Made by a program: the position numbers and the translations under genes. A stretch of 64,000 bases of DNA from Kribbella catacumbae DSM 19601 (GTDB lineage: Bacteria; Actinomycetota; Actinomycetes; Propionibacteriales; Kribbellaceae), in NCBI RefSeq assembly GCF_000372465.1, contig NZ_AQUZ01000028.1, forward strand, positions 1 to 64,000, in the 5' to 3' direction. The notes beneath the pieces were generated by a model. That model saw only the letters and a list, made by a program, of their open reading frames with translations, did not search any database and was not told the DNA's origin. Of this stretch, positions 3,636 to 33,573 are shown in pieces. Position 1 is the first letter of the stretch. Each line of letters begins with the position of its first letter.

Positions 3636-3879
3636 TTGCGGGGTGAAGAAGCTTTCCATCGACAGGGATGCGAACACGACTGAAAAGCCGACACGCAGGC
3701 TGGTTGAAGGTATCCCCGCATGTTCGCGCACTGGAGATGGGTTCCTTCGGTCCCGCGCGTCTGGTGACCAGGATGACAAGAGCCCGGTGAACCGAGAGGT
3801 TCACGCCGGGATCTGTGGGAGCCGGGGGCTGAAATGCCCCCGGCCACCCAACCAGGGTGTGCTTGAGGCCCTTGGCCCC

Positions 3880-13122: not shown

Positions 13123-14061
13123 ATGGGTCCTCTCCTCTGCCTCCTCTCAGCCGTCTGTTTCGGCGCCATGGCGATCTTCGGCAAGCTCGCGTACGAGGCG
13201 GGGGTCGACCTTGGAGACCTGCTGCTCCTTCGCTTCGCGTTCGCGGCCGCGGCGCTGTTGGCGATCGCCCGCGCGACCGGAGCCTTCCGTGGGCTGTCGC
13301 GTCGGTCGATGGCGGCAGGCCTGGCCATGGGCGGGATCGGGTATGCCGCGCAGTCCGGTCTCTTCTTCGGGGCGCTGGAACGGATGGACGCGTCGTTGCT
13401 CGCGTTGATCCTCTACGTCTACCCGGCTTTGGTGATGCTCGGCGCGATCGCGCTGGGCCGCGAGAGGGCGTCGACTCGCCGGATCGCCGCGCTCCTGATC
13501 GCCTCCAGTGGCACGGCCCTGGTCCTGGGTGGCGCGGCCTCGGGCGGCCTGGATCCGCTGGGGGCTGCGATGGGCCTTGGCGCTGCAGTTGCCTACAGCA
13601 TCTACATCCTTGCCGGTGACCGAGTAGGTGCGACCACGCCGCCGATCGCCCTCTCCGCACTCGTCTGCACCGGCGCCACCTGCACCTTCGCCCTGGCATC
13701 CGCCGTACAAGGCGGACCTCGGCTGGGATTCGCTCCTAGTGGTTGGCTTTGGCTGATCGCGATCGCGATGATCAGCACGGTCGCGGCCATCCTGACCTTC
13801 TTCGCGGGAATGGCACGGGTCGGCCCTTCGGCAGCCTCGATCCTCTCGACCTTCGAGCCCGTCATCACGGTCGCCCTCGCAGCCGCGGCATTCAGCGAGT
13901 CCCTGAACCCGATCCAGACCCTCGGCGGCCTCCTGGTGCTCAGCGCCGTCCTAGTAATCCAATGGCCCACCAGCCGACGGCAACCACCCGCGCCAGAGCC
14001 AGCTGCACCCGCCCCACGAAGGAATTCAGCTGGCCGCGCCCATCCCACCCTGGCGGCCTAA
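13123..14061 (+). CDS. EamA/DMT-family transporter
   Basis: This is a 312-residue protein with two EamA repeats of about five helices each: residues about 1-140 beginning MGPLLCLLSAVCFGAMAIFG, and about 150-290 beginning GAAMGLGAAVAYSIYILAGD. Both repeats contain typical glycine and proline positions, such as YVYPALVML and STFEPVITVALAAAAFSE. A Pro/Ala-rich tail follows. It is an inner-membrane exporter of a small metabolite, probably controlled by the divergent LysR gene. The short spacing fits a leaderless or very short leader. Confidence 0.9.
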   Translation: MGPLLCLLSAVCFGAMAIFGKLAYEAGVDLGDLLLLRFAFAAAALLAIARATGAFRGLSRRSMAAGLAMGGIGYAAQSGLFFGALERMDASLLALILYVYPALVMLGAIALGRERASTRRIAALLIASSGTALVLGGAASGGLDPLGAAMGLGAAVAYSIYILAGDRVGATTPPIALSALVCTGATCTFALASAVQGGPRLGFAPSGWLWLIAIAMISTVAAILTFFAGMARVGPSAASILSTFEPVITVALAAAAFSESLNPIQTLGGLLVLSAVLVIQWPTSRRQPPAPEPAAPAPRRNSAGRAHPTLAA

Positions 14062-14089
14062 GCACATCGGCAGCCCGGTCAGGTGACCG

Positions 14090-14189
14090 AGCCCACCAGT
14101 GGTGGGCTTGAACACCTTCTGGTGACCTTGAACAGGGTGGACCTTGTTCAAGGTCACCGTTAGGGGTCCAAGCCCACCACTGGTGGGCT
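14090..14189. repeat. Composite palindromic element between convergent genes (copy A)
   Basis: Three inverted repeats lie in a row. AGCCCACCA-g-TGGTGGGCT is at 14090-14108. GGTGACCTTGAACA (14121-14134) pairs with TGTTCAAGGTCACC (14145-14158). AGCCCACCA-c-TGGTGGGCT at 14171-14189 is the exact reverse complement of the first. The first and second modules recur at 31364-31454, also between convergent genes. A bidirectional terminator, or a dispersed REP-like element, is the likely nature. Confidence 0.75.
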
Positions 14190-14282
14190 CGCGGCCGAAA
14201 GGCCGGCGACGAGACCCGTAGGCACGATGCCGGGTGGGGGGCGGCCTCGGCGAAGTACCTCCCCGAACCGCTGAGCTAGCTG

Positions 14283-14312
14283 GCCATTTGGGAGGTTAAC
14301 CGCCCAAATGGC
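14283..14312. terminator. Terminator-like hairpin
   Basis: GCCATTTGGG (14283-14292) and CCCAAATGGC (14303-14312) form a perfect 10-bp stem. The 10-nt spacer holds the small palindrome GGTTAACC. It lies 35 bp beyond the 3' end of the minus-strand ABC permease gene. The sequence from 14190 to 14282 shows no gene. Confidence 0.6.
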
Positions 14313-14346
14313 GTGGTCGTGCTGCCGGTAGCCAATCTCATTCGGA

Positions 14347-15093
14347 CTAGTTCAGCTGTAGGCGGCGCCAGGAGAGCATCGCGAGGCCCGCGCTGGCGAG
14401 GACGACGGGGATGACGAGGGTGAGATGGGTGCTCGGGACGTCGGTGCTGATCGCCCAGAGCGCCGGGACCGAGAACGGAAACCACTGACCTGCTCCGGCT
14501 ATTGCGGCGATCTGGGAGAGCACGAGGATGCCGACAGCAACCGCGATTCCGGCCAGAATCGATCTGCCGATGGTGGCAGCCCAGGCGACCGGCATGGCAA
14601 TGACGCCGGTGAGGACGGCGAGGACGAACTGACGACCCAGGGCGGGTAACACGTCCGCAGGAATCGGGCCGAGCCCGAAAGCCAGCCCGAACACGAGCAA
14701 CGCCGCAAGCAAGGCCGCGCTGCAGAACAGCAACCAGGCAAGGTAAACCAGCAGCTTGGCCGCGGCAATCGTCGGGCGAGACACCGGGATCGCGAACAGC
14801 CCAGTGATGGTCCCGTCGCCGAACTCGCGCCCGAACATCCAGCTCAGCACCACCCCGCAGCCAAGCAGCCCGGCCGCCGCGGTCACCTGCGCGGCGATGG
14901 TCAGGTAGCCGGCCCATCCGCCCGGGTCGATCAGCGCACCGAGCTTCGCGGCGATCTGCGGATCACCGGTATTGGTTGCCAACAGCATCGATGAGCAGAT
15001 CAGGCTGACGCCGAGCACCAGGATGGCGGTCGTTGCCCGCGGCACCGTCCCCCGGGCGAGCTTGATCAACTCCGTCACCAGCGCGGGCGTCAC
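14347..15093 (-). CDS. ABC-2 type permease (TetR-linked exporter, minus cassette)
   Basis: This is a 248-residue protein with six hydrophobic segments: AILVLGVSLICSSMLL, the AAQVTAAAGLLGCGVVLSW region, LLVYLAWLLFCSAALLAALL, AVLTGVIAMPVAWAATIG, GIAVAVGILVLSQIAAI, and the C-terminal LTLVIPVVLASAGLAML. It starts by overlapping the ATPase stop by 4 nt. It forms the membrane part of an exporter encoded as tetR-ATPase-permease. The final residues WRRLQLN form a basic cytoplasmic tail. The substrate is unknown. Confidence 0.8.
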   Translation of the reverse strand: MTPALVTELIKLARGTVPRATTAILVLGVSLICSSMLLATNTGDPQIAAKLGALIDPGGWAGYLTIAAQVTAAAGLLGCGVVLSWMFGREFGDGTITGLFAIPVSRPTIAAAKLLVYLAWLLFCSAALLAALLVFGLAFGLGPIPADVLPALGRQFVLAVLTGVIAMPVAWAATIGRSILAGIAVAVGILVLSQIAAIAGAGQWFPFSVPALWAISTDVPSTHLTLVIPVVLASAGLAMLSWRRLQLN

Positions 15094-29816: not shown

Positions 29817-31013
29817 ATGTCCTTCACTCGCAATAGTTCCGGCCGTACTACGCGGCGTCGCCGAAGCGCGGCGCTCGCCTCGGCGGCAGCCACGATCACC
29901 AGTTTGACGGCCGGCGCGGTGACCACCTCCGCACCGGCCGCTGCCAACAGCAACTACATCGCGAGCAAGCCGTCCGGCGTCGTACAGCAGGGTCTGGACC
30001 GGCTGGTCAAGGACGACAAGTTCCCAGCCGCTCTGGCCTCAGTACGGGATCGCAATGGCCGCACCCGCAAATACACCGCCGGTGTCGCGGACCTGAAGAC
30101 CAAGGCGAGGGTGCCCGTCGACGGCCAGGTCAGGATCGCCAGCAACACCAAGACCTTCGTCGCCACCGTCGTTCTGCAGTTGGTCGGTGAAGGCAAGGTC
30201 GGGCTCGACCAACCGATCGAGAAGTACCTGCCCGGCCTGGTCCGCGGCAAGGGCATCGACGGCCACCACATCACCGTCCGCCAGTTGCTGCAGCACACCA
30301 GCGGTCTGCCCGACTACGACCAGGATGTCGCCACCGACTATCTCCCCTTGCAGCACACCTACTTCGAGCCGCGACAACTCCTCGATCTGGCGCTGGCTCA
30401 TGGAGCTGTCTCCGCTCCCGGTACGAACTGGAGCTACAGCAACACCAACTACATCCTGGCCGGGCTGCTGGTGCAGAGGGTGACCGGGCGTCCGCTCGGC
30501 GAGGAGATCACCAAGCGGGTGATCAACCGGATCGGACTGCGGCACACCTACTGGCCGGCCGTCGGGGACCAGACGATCCGCGAGCGCCACCCCAAGGGCT
30601 ACTGGCTGACCGAGCCCGGCAAGCCGCTGGTCGACGTGACCGAGCAGGAACCGTCGGCGTCTTGGGCTGCCGGGGCGCTGATCTCCACCCCGAGCGACCT
30701 CAACAGCTTCTTCGGCGCGCTGATCGGTGGCAAGCTGCTCAAGCCGGCACAGCTGAAGCAGATGCTCACCACCGTCGACGCGCCCGACGCCGGACCCCGC
30801 GGCGCCTCTCGGTACGGCCTCGGCATCCAGACCTTCAAGCTGAGCTGCGGAGGCATCGCCTGGGGCCATGGTGGCGACGCACCGGGCTACGAGACCCGCA
30901 ACGCCGTCCGTACCGATGGACGCCAGGCGACCGTCGCGGTCACCACGCTCCCGACCACCCTCGCCACAGCCACCGCTGTCGAGAACCTCGTCGACGCCGC
31001 ACTCTGCCACTGA
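29817..31013 (+). CDS. Secreted serine hydrolase (class C beta-lactamase/DD-peptidase fold)
   Basis: This is a 398-residue protein with a twin-Arg-rich N-terminus (GRTTRRRRSAALAS) and a hydrophobic signal with an Ala-x-Ala-like end near 43. The catalytic motifs are in order: SNTK at 109-112 (S-x-x-K), YSN at 207-209 (Y-x-N) and HGG at 351-353 (KTG equivalent). The length and motif spacing fit Streptomyces R61-like D-alanyl-D-alanine carboxypeptidases and related esterases. It likely trims peptidoglycan peptides or hydrolyses esters outside the cell. Export by Sec or Tat is unclear. Confidence 0.88.
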   Translation: MSFTRNSSGRTTRRRRSAALASAAATITSLTAGAVTTSAPAAANSNYIASKPSGVVQQGLDRLVKDDKFPAALASVRDRNGRTRKYTAGVADLKTKARVPVDGQVRIASNTKTFVATVVLQLVGEGKVGLDQPIEKYLPGLVRGKGIDGHHITVRQLLQHTSGLPDYDQDVATDYLPLQHTYFEPRQLLDLALAHGAVSAPGTNWSYSNTNYILAGLLVQRVTGRPLGEEITKRVINRIGLRHTYWPAVGDQTIRERHPKGYWLTEPGKPLVDVTEQEPSASWAAGALISTPSDLNSFFGALIGGKLLKPAQLKQMLTTVDAPDAGPRGASRYGLGIQTFKLSCGGIAWGHGGDAPGYETRNAVRTDGRQATVAVTTLPTTLATATAVENLVDAALCH

Positions 31014-31157: not shown

Positions 31158-31252
31158 CCGACGGACAGGACGTAGTCATCTACGTATACGCCGCCGCCCG
31201 CCTGAGCAACCACTGACAAACCCGATTCGAGCGACTATGTCCTGTCCGTCGG
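31158..31252. repeat. Long inverted repeat, 20-bp arms
   Basis: CCGACGGACAGGACGTAGTC (31158-31177) faces GACTATGTCCTGTCCGTCGG (31233-31252), 19 of 20 positions complementary, with a 55-bp spacer. It lies between convergent genes, about 145 bp after the serine hydrolase stop. The left arm sits at the end of a short open frame that spells VQRPDGQDVVIYVYAAARL, possibly a gene fragment. It may be a decayed mobile element end pair or a structured terminator. Confidence 0.6.
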
Positions 31253-31363
31253 CACACAAACCCGAAGGATCGCCCGCCGGCGGCGGAGTACAGGGTGCTG
31301 AAGGTGGTGCCGGCTCAACCCCGGCGCCCAGGACCGCTAGCGCCCCCGAGCCCTGACCGAAAC

Positions 31364-31454
31364 GGTGACCTTGAACAACAAACGGTGGCCGTGAACAAGA
31401 AATACCTTGTTCACGGCCACCGCTTGTTGTTCAAGCCCACCAGTGGTGGGCTTG
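31364..31454. repeat. Composite palindromic element between convergent genes (copy B)
   Basis: An outer arm TTGAACAACAA (31371-31381) pairs with TTGTTGTTCAA (31424-31434). An inner perfect 17-bp arm runs 31383-31399 (CGGTGGCCGTGAACAAG) and 31406-31422. Overlapping the right end, AAGCCCACCA-g-TGGTGGGCTT spans 31433-31453. GGTGACCTTGAACA (31364-31377) and the GTTCAAGCCCACCAGTGG segment match copy A at 14090-14189, although the inner stem differs. The common modules with a variable core suggest a mosaic repeat family. Confidence 0.75.
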
Positions 31455-31460
31455 GCCGCC

Positions 31461-31490
31461 GCAGCCCGCCGCAGCCCGCCGCAGCCCGCC
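31461..31490. repeat. Tandem decamer repeat
   Basis: Three perfect copies of GCAGCCCGCC lie immediately beyond the palindromic element and 7 bp before the stop of the next minus-strand gene. A fourth, partial unit follows. Copy number could vary by slippage. Confidence 0.8.
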
Positions 31491-31497
31491 GCACGGG

Positions 31498-33573
31498 TTA
31501 GGTGGTGATGACTGATGAGCCCTTTGGTCTGAGCAGGAAGGCGCCGGCGTACAGCAGGGCGGCGATGATGAGCAGGCCGTCGAAGCCGATCAGCAGGGCG
31601 GCGTACTCCAGGCAGCCGCCGAGCATCGCGCCGAGCAGGTTGGCGCCGAAGCTCGCGGTGCCGTCTGCCGTGTCGGTGAACCGTTTCGCGAAGATCACGT
31701 TCGCGGCGAAGATCGGCATGAACGCGATCACCACCGCGACCAGCGCGCGCAACCCGACCGGCATCGAGAGCAGCCAGCTGTCCGGGAACACCCAACTCAG
31801 CAGCAGACCCGCGGCGAGTACGCCGTACATCACCTTCATCGGTGGGGTCTTGAACTTCCGCGTCACTTCGACAGCAGCCAGTACTGCGACCAGCACCCCG
31901 GCGAAGACGATCGCGTTCACCACCCACGTCGTACCGAACAGCAGCGCGAACCCGGTGATGCTCTTGGTCTCCAGCAGCATGAAGCCGGCGCCGAGCAGGA
32001 ACAGATCGGCGTACGGCCGCATCCGCCGGTACGACGAGCCGCCGCCCGCGATGCCGACGCCGATCAGGCCGGCGACCAGGACGAGCCCGAGCGTGACCAG
32101 GTAGAGCGATGGGATCCGGTCGGTGAACAGGTACAGGAACGGCCGGTTGTCCGTCGCCGGCGGCGGCGTGACCGCGGTCTTGCCCGCCCACGCGGTGCCA
32201 CAGGTCTGGTCAGCCTCGGTCAGCCCGACGGTCACCACGGCCTGCTGCAGATTGTCGCCGACCTTGTCGACGCACGGCTTGTGCCCGAAGGCCTTCTCCG
32301 CCGTCAGAGCGAGCCGGTCGATCAGCCAGGTCTCGCGGTAGTAGTTGTACATCGCGAACGCGCCACCCGGTGCGAGGTGTTCCTTCGCGCTCTCGAACGC
32401 CTGCTGGGTGAACAGGTAGCTCTCCAGCCGCAGCGAGCTCGCGCCGTTGACCAGCGTCAGCGAGTCCGGCAGGGCCAGCATGATCAGGTCGTACTTCTTG
32501 TCCGTGCGCGACAGGAACGCCCGCCCGTCGTCGATGTGCGACGTCACCCGCGGGTCCTGGTACGGGTGGTCGGGGTGCTTGGCCTTGCCGATGTCGCGGA
32601 TCCGCGGGTCGATCTCGACCGCGTCGACGTGCTCCGCGCCCTTCTTCAAGGCGATCGCGACGTCGGAGCCCGAGCCGGCACCGATGATCAGCACGTTCTT
32701 CGGCGCCTTGCCAGCGTTGGCCCGCTCGTACGGCAGCCCGTACTGCGGTTCCCACTGCAGCCGCGCGTCGGCCGGGATCGCCTGCTGATGCGGTACGCCG
32801 TTCACCGTGATCGTCAGCAGCGGAACGCCTTGCCACTCGAATCCCGAGGTCTGCACCTTGTAGTACGGCGACCAGCTGTTCTCCGGCCGGGTGGACTCGT
32901 GGAACAGCACACCGACCATCACCAGCAGCGGCGCGGCCACCAGCGCGGCACTCAGCGCGGTCGCGGTCGCCTTCTGCTGCGGGACCATCAGCACCAGGAA
33001 CGTGATCGTGACGATCGCACCCCACCAGATCGGCGGCGCGCCGAGGAACGACAGCCCCGTGAAGCAGACGATGCCGAGCAGGCTGCCGATCAGGTCATAC
33101 CGGTACGCCGTCAGTCGCGGCAGCTCGGCGAAGCACCGGCCGACCAGCTCGGCCGGGCCGGCCAGGATCACCGCGGCGGCGACGAAGACGATCGGCAGGA
33201 TCACCCAGGTCGGCGGGCCGGTGGTGTTCAGGCTGGTGAAGTAGATGACGCTGGAATCGCTGCCCCGGTTGACCGTGACCGGCTTCCACGCGATCACCGC
33301 GACCAGCAGGCCGAGCATGATGGGGGAGTAGTAGGGCAGCCGCCTCGCCCGGGAGGATCGCAGGATGCCGATCCCGATGCCGAGGAACGAGCCCAGCAGC
33401 ACGAAGTTCGAGAAATAGCTGAGGTGGACCACGTTGGACCCGGTCCAGCGGATCAGCGCCAGCTCGAGGAACAACATCAGCGCGCTGGAGGCGATCAGGC
33501 GCGGTCTCACCGCCAGCGGACTGTGCCACCGGGGAACACTGATCTGATCAGGTGTGGAGGAGTCGACTGCCAT
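31498..33573 (-). CDS. Spermidine-synthase-like membrane protein
   Basis: This is a 691-residue protein. About eight hydrophobic helices occupy the first 210 residues (ALMLFLELALIRWTGS, LLGSFLGIGIGIL, IVFVAAAVILAGPAELVG and others). A soluble Rossmann methyltransferase/aminopropyltransferase domain covers about residues 290-440 (VLIIGAGSGSDVAIALKKGAEHVDAVEIDP, DDGRAFLSRTDKKYDLIML). At least six further helices follow. The motif set matches PF01564-type spermidine synthase domains embedded in membrane proteins, whose reaction is unknown. The polyamine-binding acidic pair cannot be confirmed. It appears monocistronic. Confidence 0.75.
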   Translation of the reverse strand: MAVDSSTPDQISVPRWHSPLAVRPRLIASSALMLFLELALIRWTGSNVVHLSYFSNFVLLGSFLGIGIGILRSSRARRLPYYSPIMLGLLVAVIAWKPVTVNRGSDSSVIYFTSLNTTGPPTWVILPIVFVAAAVILAGPAELVGRCFAELPRLTAYRYDLIGSLLGIVCFTGLSFLGAPPIWWGAIVTITFLVLMVPQQKATATALSAALVAAPLLVMVGVLFHESTRPENSWSPYYKVQTSGFEWQGVPLLTITVNGVPHQQAIPADARLQWEPQYGLPYERANAGKAPKNVLIIGAGSGSDVAIALKKGAEHVDAVEIDPRIRDIGKAKHPDHPYQDPRVTSHIDDGRAFLSRTDKKYDLIMLALPDSLTLVNGASSLRLESYLFTQQAFESAKEHLAPGGAFAMYNYYRETWLIDRLALTAEKAFGHKPCVDKVGDNLQQAVVTVGLTEADQTCGTAWAGKTAVTPPPATDNRPFLYLFTDRIPSLYLVTLGLVLVAGLIGVGIAGGGSSYRRMRPYADLFLLGAGFMLLETKSITGFALLFGTTWVVNAIVFAGVLVAVLAAVEVTRKFKTPPMKVMYGVLAAGLLLSWVFPDSWLLSMPVGLRALVAVVIAFMPIFAANVIFAKRFTDTADGTASFGANLLGAMLGGCLEYAALLIGFDGLLIIAALLYAGAFLLRPKGSSVITT

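Follow-up and report, generated by a model that had tools for sequence, protein, structure and literature searches.

REPs, with their BIME and REPIN composites, are extragenic palindromes in inverted arrangement, biased towards convergent and co-directional gene pairs and close to 3′ ends in the account of PMC3733652, and an association with the RAYT transposase is described in PMC2817692. The SPRITE repeat is an interspersed hairpin enriched between convergent genes, near their 3′ ends and in close relatives only; as presented in PMC3049150 it is AT-rich, has an 18-bp duplex and a U-rich tail, and no target-site duplication (TSD) is established for it. The pneumococcal BOX element, boxA-boxB(n)-boxC, has constant ends that enclose internal units in varying number, and it causes TSDs, according to the same source (PMC3049150). 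REP-like families without tags are listed for M. tuberculosis, Deinococcus, Bordetella, Brucella and Cyanobacteria in PMC3733652, and stem-loops in general are reported to favour 3′ ends (PMC1590033).

The family described here, in Kribbella, is of this known general kind, the small interspersed palindromic repeat, with many similar short palindromic copies outside genes; it is unusual in its ladder-like internal build and in gaining and losing whole units. It shares with REPs the extragenic palindromes, the inverted composite arrangement and the position relative to genes. In contrast to REPs, its consensus ends GCGAGCCC...GGGCTCG, without a GTAG/CGTC tag (41 copies, by eye), and the element is about 106 bp long with 20-bp rungs, as against a REP unit of 20-40 bp. 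The transposase type searched for, Y1/RAYT (PF01797), was absent from the genome studied and from 36 of the 37 other genomes of the genus, being found in G007 only, with a control search positive in 5 of 14 known genomes. Having neither tag nor transposase, the family cannot be counted among the RAYT-mobilised REPs, and RAYT mobilisation was rejected. It resembles SPRITE in kind of location and in its restriction to close relatives, and differs from it, compared by description, in being GC-rich, with a stem of up to about 50 bp and rarely a U-tract. As in BOX, the number of internal units varies between constant ends; unlike BOX, again compared by description, the repeated unit itself carries a hairpin ladder. 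Likeness to the untagged REP-like families, as extragenic palindromes without tags, was also judged by description. ERIC is 127 bp long and near-palindromic over its length. It is an intergenic repeat counted as a MITE, which may occur at the 3′ end of a gene and influence the mRNA, as described in PMC10969869. Terminal inverted repeats, a feature of MITEs, are present in the Kribbella element, the outer modules being mutually complementary; it differs from ERIC/IRU and from Correia-type MITEs in being found only in Kribbella among the genera searched and in its internal 20-bp periodicity. No paper describing the family was found by title or abstract start among those listed, most subscription journals lying outside the coverage of that search.

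Two copies lie in the window, the stretch of 64,000 nucleotides that was analysed, which belongs to a Kribbella genome of 9.63 Mb in 151 contigs (G000). Their parts and neighbours are as follows.

13123..14061, + strand: EamA transporter gene, 3′ end towards element 1
14087..14192, unstranded: full composite element 1, one 81-bp unit plus closing palindrome
14090..14108, unstranded: left outer palindrome of element 1, AGCCCACCAGTGGTGGGCT
14101..14114, + strand: rung 2 of element 1, GGTGGGCTTGAACA, 20 bp before rung 1
14121..14137, + strand: left arm of the central stem of element 1, which is rung 1, GGTGACCTTGAACA...
14142..14158, + strand: right arm of the central stem of element 1
14171..14189, unstranded: right outer palindrome of element 1, AGCCCACCACTGGTGGGCT, starting 81 bp after the start of the left one
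14347..15093, − strand: ABC-2 membrane protein gene, 3′ end towards element 1
29817..31013, + strand: PF00144 beta-lactamase-fold gene, left neighbour of element 2
about 31364..31454, unstranded: element 2, a two-rung long hairpin with a single terminal palindrome (model match 31346-31455)
31364..31399, + strand: left hairpin arm of element 2, rungs at 31364 and 31384, 20 bp apart
31406..31441, + strand: right hairpin arm of element 2, minus-strand rungs at 31408 and 31428
31434..31452, unstranded: terminal palindrome at the right end of element 2
31498..33573, − strand: spermine-synthase-domain gene, right neighbour of element 2, 3′ end about 45 bp off

The initial annotation had placed these elements at 14090-14189 and 31364-31454, in gaps between convergent genes. 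Both gaps are indeed convergent (EamA/ABC-2 and PF00144/spermine-synthase-domain pairs), and element 1 reaches slightly further than had been thought, from 14087 to 14192. Its outer palindromes AGCCCACCAGTGGTGGGCT and AGCCCACCACTGGTGGGCT are exact reverse complements, as had been read. Element 2 has no left palindrome, and GGTGACCTTGAACA, which occurs in the window at 14121 (+), 14145 (−) and 31364 (+), opens its left end directly. Both elements fold far better than shuffled sequence on either strand, with z-scores for the two strands of −14.0/−13.8 for element 1 and −9.3/−11.4 for element 2. The 14-mer, with at most 2 mismatches, was found 8 times in the window against 0.27 expected, one of these sites (26231) lying outside both elements; the 15-bp core with at most 3 mismatches was not above chance in the window alone (3 found, all exact, 3.57 expected).

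The repeat family is real, and of the genera searched Kribbella is the only one in which it was found. The 19-bp palindrome occurs exactly at 35 places in G000, and GGTGACCTTGAACA at 16, with no occurrence of the control in either case (the reversed pattern for the palindrome); the repeat is thus genome-wide and not limited to two occurrences. Where pairs of palindromes were found, 16 of 17 were spaced by 81 bp. A covariance model (R1) was built, and orientations were chosen, from 22 copies, a subset of the 41-row alignment discussed below, with a mean column identity of 87%. On both strands of G000 this model gave at least 104 matches at E≤1, corresponding to at least 53 places, and at least 46 places at E≤0.001; as 150 of 7,314 first-look candidates were scored, the copy number is a lower bound. 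Element 1, itself among the 22 rows used to build the model, is the top-scoring copy of the genome (109.8 bits on the + strand, 103 bits on the − strand). Across the genus, with at most 103 candidates scored per genome, matches at E≤0.001 were obtained in 28 of 38 genomes and none in the other 10. Counts on both strands were at least 91 in G000, 84 in G030, 29 in G028, 27 in G017, 25 in G007 and 21 in G008; the model rewards any long hairpin, and weak matches may be other hairpins.

The exact palindrome is present in 4 of the 38 genomes (35 in G000, 13 in G027, 3 each in G028 and G030). An order-wide search of 293 genomes at E≤1e-5, with stricter filters that lose weak matches, matched 13 genomes, all of them Kribbella, 1 of 37 genera. 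In a scan of 84,980 species the 19-mer was found in 16 stretches, 12 from ‘Streptomyces sp. SID13031’, a record that lies within Kribbella, and 4 from unrelated bacteria, namely two Chitinophaga and two gammaproteobacterial MAGs. The motif match L013 has no flank similarity to other loci, and its surroundings look coding by eye.

A copy is laid out as a ladder of 20-bp rungs (GGYGACCTTGAACA plus a spacer), a short loop and the rungs reversed. Copies of G000 are usually bordered by the palindrome AGCCCACCASTGGTGGGCT, to which the outer rung is joined, and a typical copy of G030 is one long hairpin made of two rungs, e.g. GGCGACCTTGAACACCAAAC, a loop, e.g. AGTTATTACC, and the reversed rungs. The middle stems of the two window elements had been described as different; they are variable throughout the family, with the refinement that the variation is compensated between the arms. 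Across the 41 rows of the G000 alignment (L010, L016, L126, L127 and L129-L133 are omitted, and L040 contributes two rows), the central stem is 91.5% paired, 8 pairs are doubly changed, a number reached in 3 of 500 shuffles, and the covariation score was reached in none of 500. At the columns that separate palindromicity from cross-pairing, the outer modules paired with each other at 0.854 versus 0.73 in shuffled data (0 of 2000), and their local palindromicity showed no excess over shuffles; over all its columns, local pairing was also above shuffles. Three independent hairpins instead of one were rejected in part, as at the separating columns the outer modules match each other and not themselves. 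No covariation was detected in the inner segment (columns 21-34/73-86). Beyond the palindromes, copy-specific flanks still pair, at 0.424 versus 0.32 (1 of 5000), in a test that used 35 of 48 copies and in which a few copies dominate; none of the six column ranges examined exceeded 26 of 5000. The rung 1 positions G-.-A-C-A do not vary in either arm, in 41 of 41 G000 rows and in the 18 G030 copies used out of 20 (L141 and L148 were omitted). Because the central stem covaries and the outer palindromes covary with each other, the element behaves as one long hairpin with 20-bp rungs. Matching of the arms can also arise from template switching, without selection.

Comparison of copies accounts for the mosaic look of the elements, which results from the presence of 0, 1 or 2 of the 81-bp unit. 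L030 is a lone palindrome (0 units) and L033 has one unit, both being inside the same longer repeat; L040 has two units with the middle palindrome in common; L038 is also a lone palindrome, with longer arms; and in one arm of a G030 copy at least 4 of the 20-bp rungs stand in tandem. The state also differs at a single 3′ end whose flanks match, with one unit in G000, a lone palindrome in SID13031 and a two-rung hairpin in G030. Of the proposal of a recombining or mobile family, the recombining part is supported by the unit states and the tandem rungs; mobility is a possibility, for which no empty/filled pair was seen by eye and no Y1/RAYT gene, the transposase type searched for, was found. The longer repeat just mentioned, several hundred bp in length, carries the element or a lone palindrome (L033:1137-1800, L030:995-1697 and others) at about a dozen places of G000, and no gene was called across it at the 5 loci checked.

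Flanks matching a G000 element locus were found for 5 of 20 G030 loci, and there was in addition one G000/G028 pair. When copies were ranked out of 45 by closeness (L129, L130 and L133 being omitted), those orthologous to G000 copies took ranks 5, 39, 40, 11, 1 and 1 for G030 and 2 for G028. The gene at L063 was matched in all 38 genomes; two of the 30 3′-end loci read (G000 and G028) have the element, and many of the others have ordinary GC-rich hairpins by eye. In relatives, the neighbour on the other side of the element 2 site differs in the 26 loci read, and at the element 1 site, where both flanks match one relative, the flanks lie apart, among the matches listed. By eye, no empty/filled pair giving the ends and a target-site duplication was found, the gaps being too diverged to define an empty site. 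A separate observation concerns the L063-gene 3′ end of G013, G017 and G037 (L176, L177, L179), where another hairpin was seen by eye, with CCGAAGAA/CCGAAGAG arms; its sequence is ACGTCCGAAGA... in G013 and G017 and ACGCCCGAAGAA in G037, and G017 has two copies in tandem, followed by the beginning of another.

The position of the copies was then related to genes called with a home-made ORF caller, trained on 400 kb of G030 and on the window. The initial annotation was right about constant modules around a variable stem and about convergent gaps; copies also lie behind co-directional genes. The 48 places of G000 divide into 23 convergent, 23 co-directional and 2 divergent, and 0 of 48 is mostly inside a called gene, so that promoters and genes do not host the repeat equally. 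This table omits C96:1, C97:94 and C97:175 (contig ends) and the overlapping matches C8:185460 and C84:7519; it keeps five weak places (L129-L133, E 0.0025 to 0.18), without which the counts are 22, 20 and 1. The 170 background gaps of at least 60 bp, taken from G030, comprise 27 convergent, 90 co-directional and 53 divergent ones, against which the 48 G000 places gave Fisher p = 1e-5 for the convergence excess and 3e-5 for the divergence deficit. A sample of 20 G030 copies, taken from about 42 places (84 matches halved), gave 13 convergent, 7 co-directional and 0 divergent. Co-directional copies are closer to the 3′ end of the upstream gene in 19 of 23 cases in G000 and 6 of 7 in G030, and a stop codon is at most 30 bp away for 25 of 48 and 19 of 20 copies, respectively, the other 23 G000 copies lying further off, which speaks against a 3′-end role for them. 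Overlap with the end of a called gene was seen for a few copies and reached 45 bp at most. The 13 SID13031 palindromes comprised 7 in convergent gaps, 4 in co-directional and 1 in a divergent gap, with the last one inside a doubtful ORF where the fetched sequence ends; 17 more loci from seven relatives gave 10, 5 and 2 (L078 and L090 being the same place). This location could reflect only a tolerance of insertions behind genes.

We tentatively favour, and give nearly an even chance to, the reading that the family is a Kribbella interspersed palindromic repeat residing mostly at gene 3′ ends, whose hairpin marks or protects the 3′ end of the mRNA; the element is then best read as an untagged REP/SPRITE-like repeat, an orientation-indifferent hairpin at mRNA 3′ ends. 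In a transcript coming from either side, the sequence behind the gene would fold into a hairpin of up to about 50 bp, and this hairpin would mark or protect the mRNA 3′ end and limit read-through between facing genes, acting either as a U-less (I-shaped) terminator or as a barrier at which the trimming of Rho-terminated transcripts stops. A hairpin used by transcripts from both sides is in keeping with the position, the symmetry and the covariation of the arms. The family would change through whole 81-bp units gained or lost between palindromes, through slippage of the 20-bp rungs and through matched changes in the two arms. The sequences show the repeat family, its location, the covariation across arms, the differing unit states and the restriction to the genus within the order searched; we infer transcription of the element, its 3′-end function, the direction of unit changes and a non-autonomous spread.

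The hairpin is GC-rich, as expected of a canonical intrinsic terminator; with a U-tract (4 or more U within the following 8 nt) at 4 of 102 sense-strand exits, U-tracts are too rare behind it for the element to be classed as one. In a mycobacterial study, the U-tract is reportedly required, going by the title. Of 1,427 3′ ends mapped in Streptomyces clavuligerus, 353 have structure yet few U, and PMC8269248 presents these as possible I-shaped terminators or trimmed Rho ends. The rarity of U-tracts, taken with these U-poor ends, favours a 3′-end barrier or protector, termination being brought about by Rho or by the hairpin itself. A known RNA family was rejected, as Rfam gave no match at gathering score over either element; a lax search of 13950-14340 remained far below cut-off, its best hit being a miRNA model (E 0.014).

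The G.U versus A.C test revealed no sense-strand bias in co-directional copies (L129-L133 omitted; counts small, copies related), with 52:76 in G000 (p = 0.04, in the wrong direction) and 17:13 in G030. Convergent copies, for which orientation is arbitrary, gave 66:58 and 48:35, and other co-directional hairpins 8:1 (n = 20). In fold energy, co-directional G000 copies have a sense strand whose stability falls short of that of the antisense strand by a mean of 3.5 kcal/mol, with sense favoured in 4 of 20 copies (p = 0.037) and, in G030, in 3 of 7 (p = 0.78). Selection on a sense-strand RNA, by G.U excess or fold energy, was thus without support. With these small counts from related copies, the absence of bias keeps alive a selfish and a DNA-level reading.

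The more serious of these, possible if rather doubtful in our estimation, is that the repeat is selfish, MITE-like and non-functional, and accumulates behind genes because insertion is least harmful there, the matching of the hairpin arms being a mobilisation signal or the history of repair. The copy number is patchy across the genus, as the counts above for G000, G030 and G028 and the 10 of 38 genomes without a match illustrate; G000 is also rich in copies of at least one further inverted-repeat family; orthologues are often no more alike than paralogues, two of the six G030 pairs having ranks 39 and 40 of 45; and over-representation between convergent genes is mentioned in the SPRITE paper as a possible sign of mobile, parasitic repeats (PMC3049150). 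However, the 5 of 20 sites common to G000 and G030 were judged, by a rough estimate, to be more than independent insertion would give, and no Y1 transposase was found in the genome. An unlikely explanation at the level of DNA would see in the 20-bp rungs putative protein-binding sites, about two turns of B-DNA apart, between facing genes, with a role in supercoiling or chromosome folding as proposed for BIMEs. A putative Kribbella protein would bind one face of the DNA, or an extruded cruciform, along this inverted ladder and set a boundary for transcription and supercoiling, so that pairing would serve DNA and not RNA, which we likewise consider improbable. The 20-bp period agrees with this, as does the lack of RNA bias, and four rung 1 positions (G-.-A-C-A) are 100% conserved when other stem positions change with compensation; yet shared descent may account for this invariance, and copies differ in rung number and in loop. 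Ordinary terminators, alike through shared base composition, would also stand behind stop codons, and GC-rich hairpins were seen by eye at the same 3′ end in many relatives. Such look-alikes hardly deserve credence: they are already contradicted by sequence identity (87% in 22 copies; 35 exact 19-mers, 0 in the control), by spacing (81 bp in 16 of 17 palindrome pairs) and by restriction to 1 of 37 genera, and U-tracts are rare.

A function of the family as a 3′-end hairpin, the reading preferred here, is plausible, judged from the sequences at hand. One repeat family supplies gene-end hairpins at dozens of places, and from species to species these hairpins adjoin the same genes with both arms altered in sequence; it also makes mosaics through addition and loss of whole units. 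A genus with many-copy and no-match species is a good system for finding how 3′-end repeats spread without a RAYT, and repeated U-less bidirectional hairpins at gene ends would offer a test of whether transcripts in actinobacteria are ended or protected in this way.

Other sequences of the window deserve mention. At 3778-3852 (+) lies the window's only Rfam match at gathering score, to a group II catalytic intron (54 bits, cut-off 40), and an overlapping ORF on the other strand has a sub-threshold phage-integrase match. The inverted pair GACAGGAC(A/G)TAGTC...GACTATGTCCTGTC at 31160-31252 belongs to a separate, larger repeat family, with forward/reverse counts of 38/45 in G000, 21/17 in G027, 5/8 in G030 and 1/10 in G019, at most 5 in each remaining genome and matches in 28 of 38; control counts were 0 in G000 and G027 and 1 each in G001 and G029, and many pair starts are 68-69 bp apart. 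Directly behind element 2, at 31456-31493, lie tandem 10-bp units, CCGCCGCAGC. The gap that holds element 1 has another palindrome, GCCATTTGGGAGGTT/AACCGCCCAAATGGC, at 14283-14312. Related GGTTAACC palindromes occur in 8 of the 38 genomes, with 6 in G030, and in the convergent gaps L155 and L163 of G030 palindromes of this type stand on either side of a middle stem, which gives the three-part layout again.
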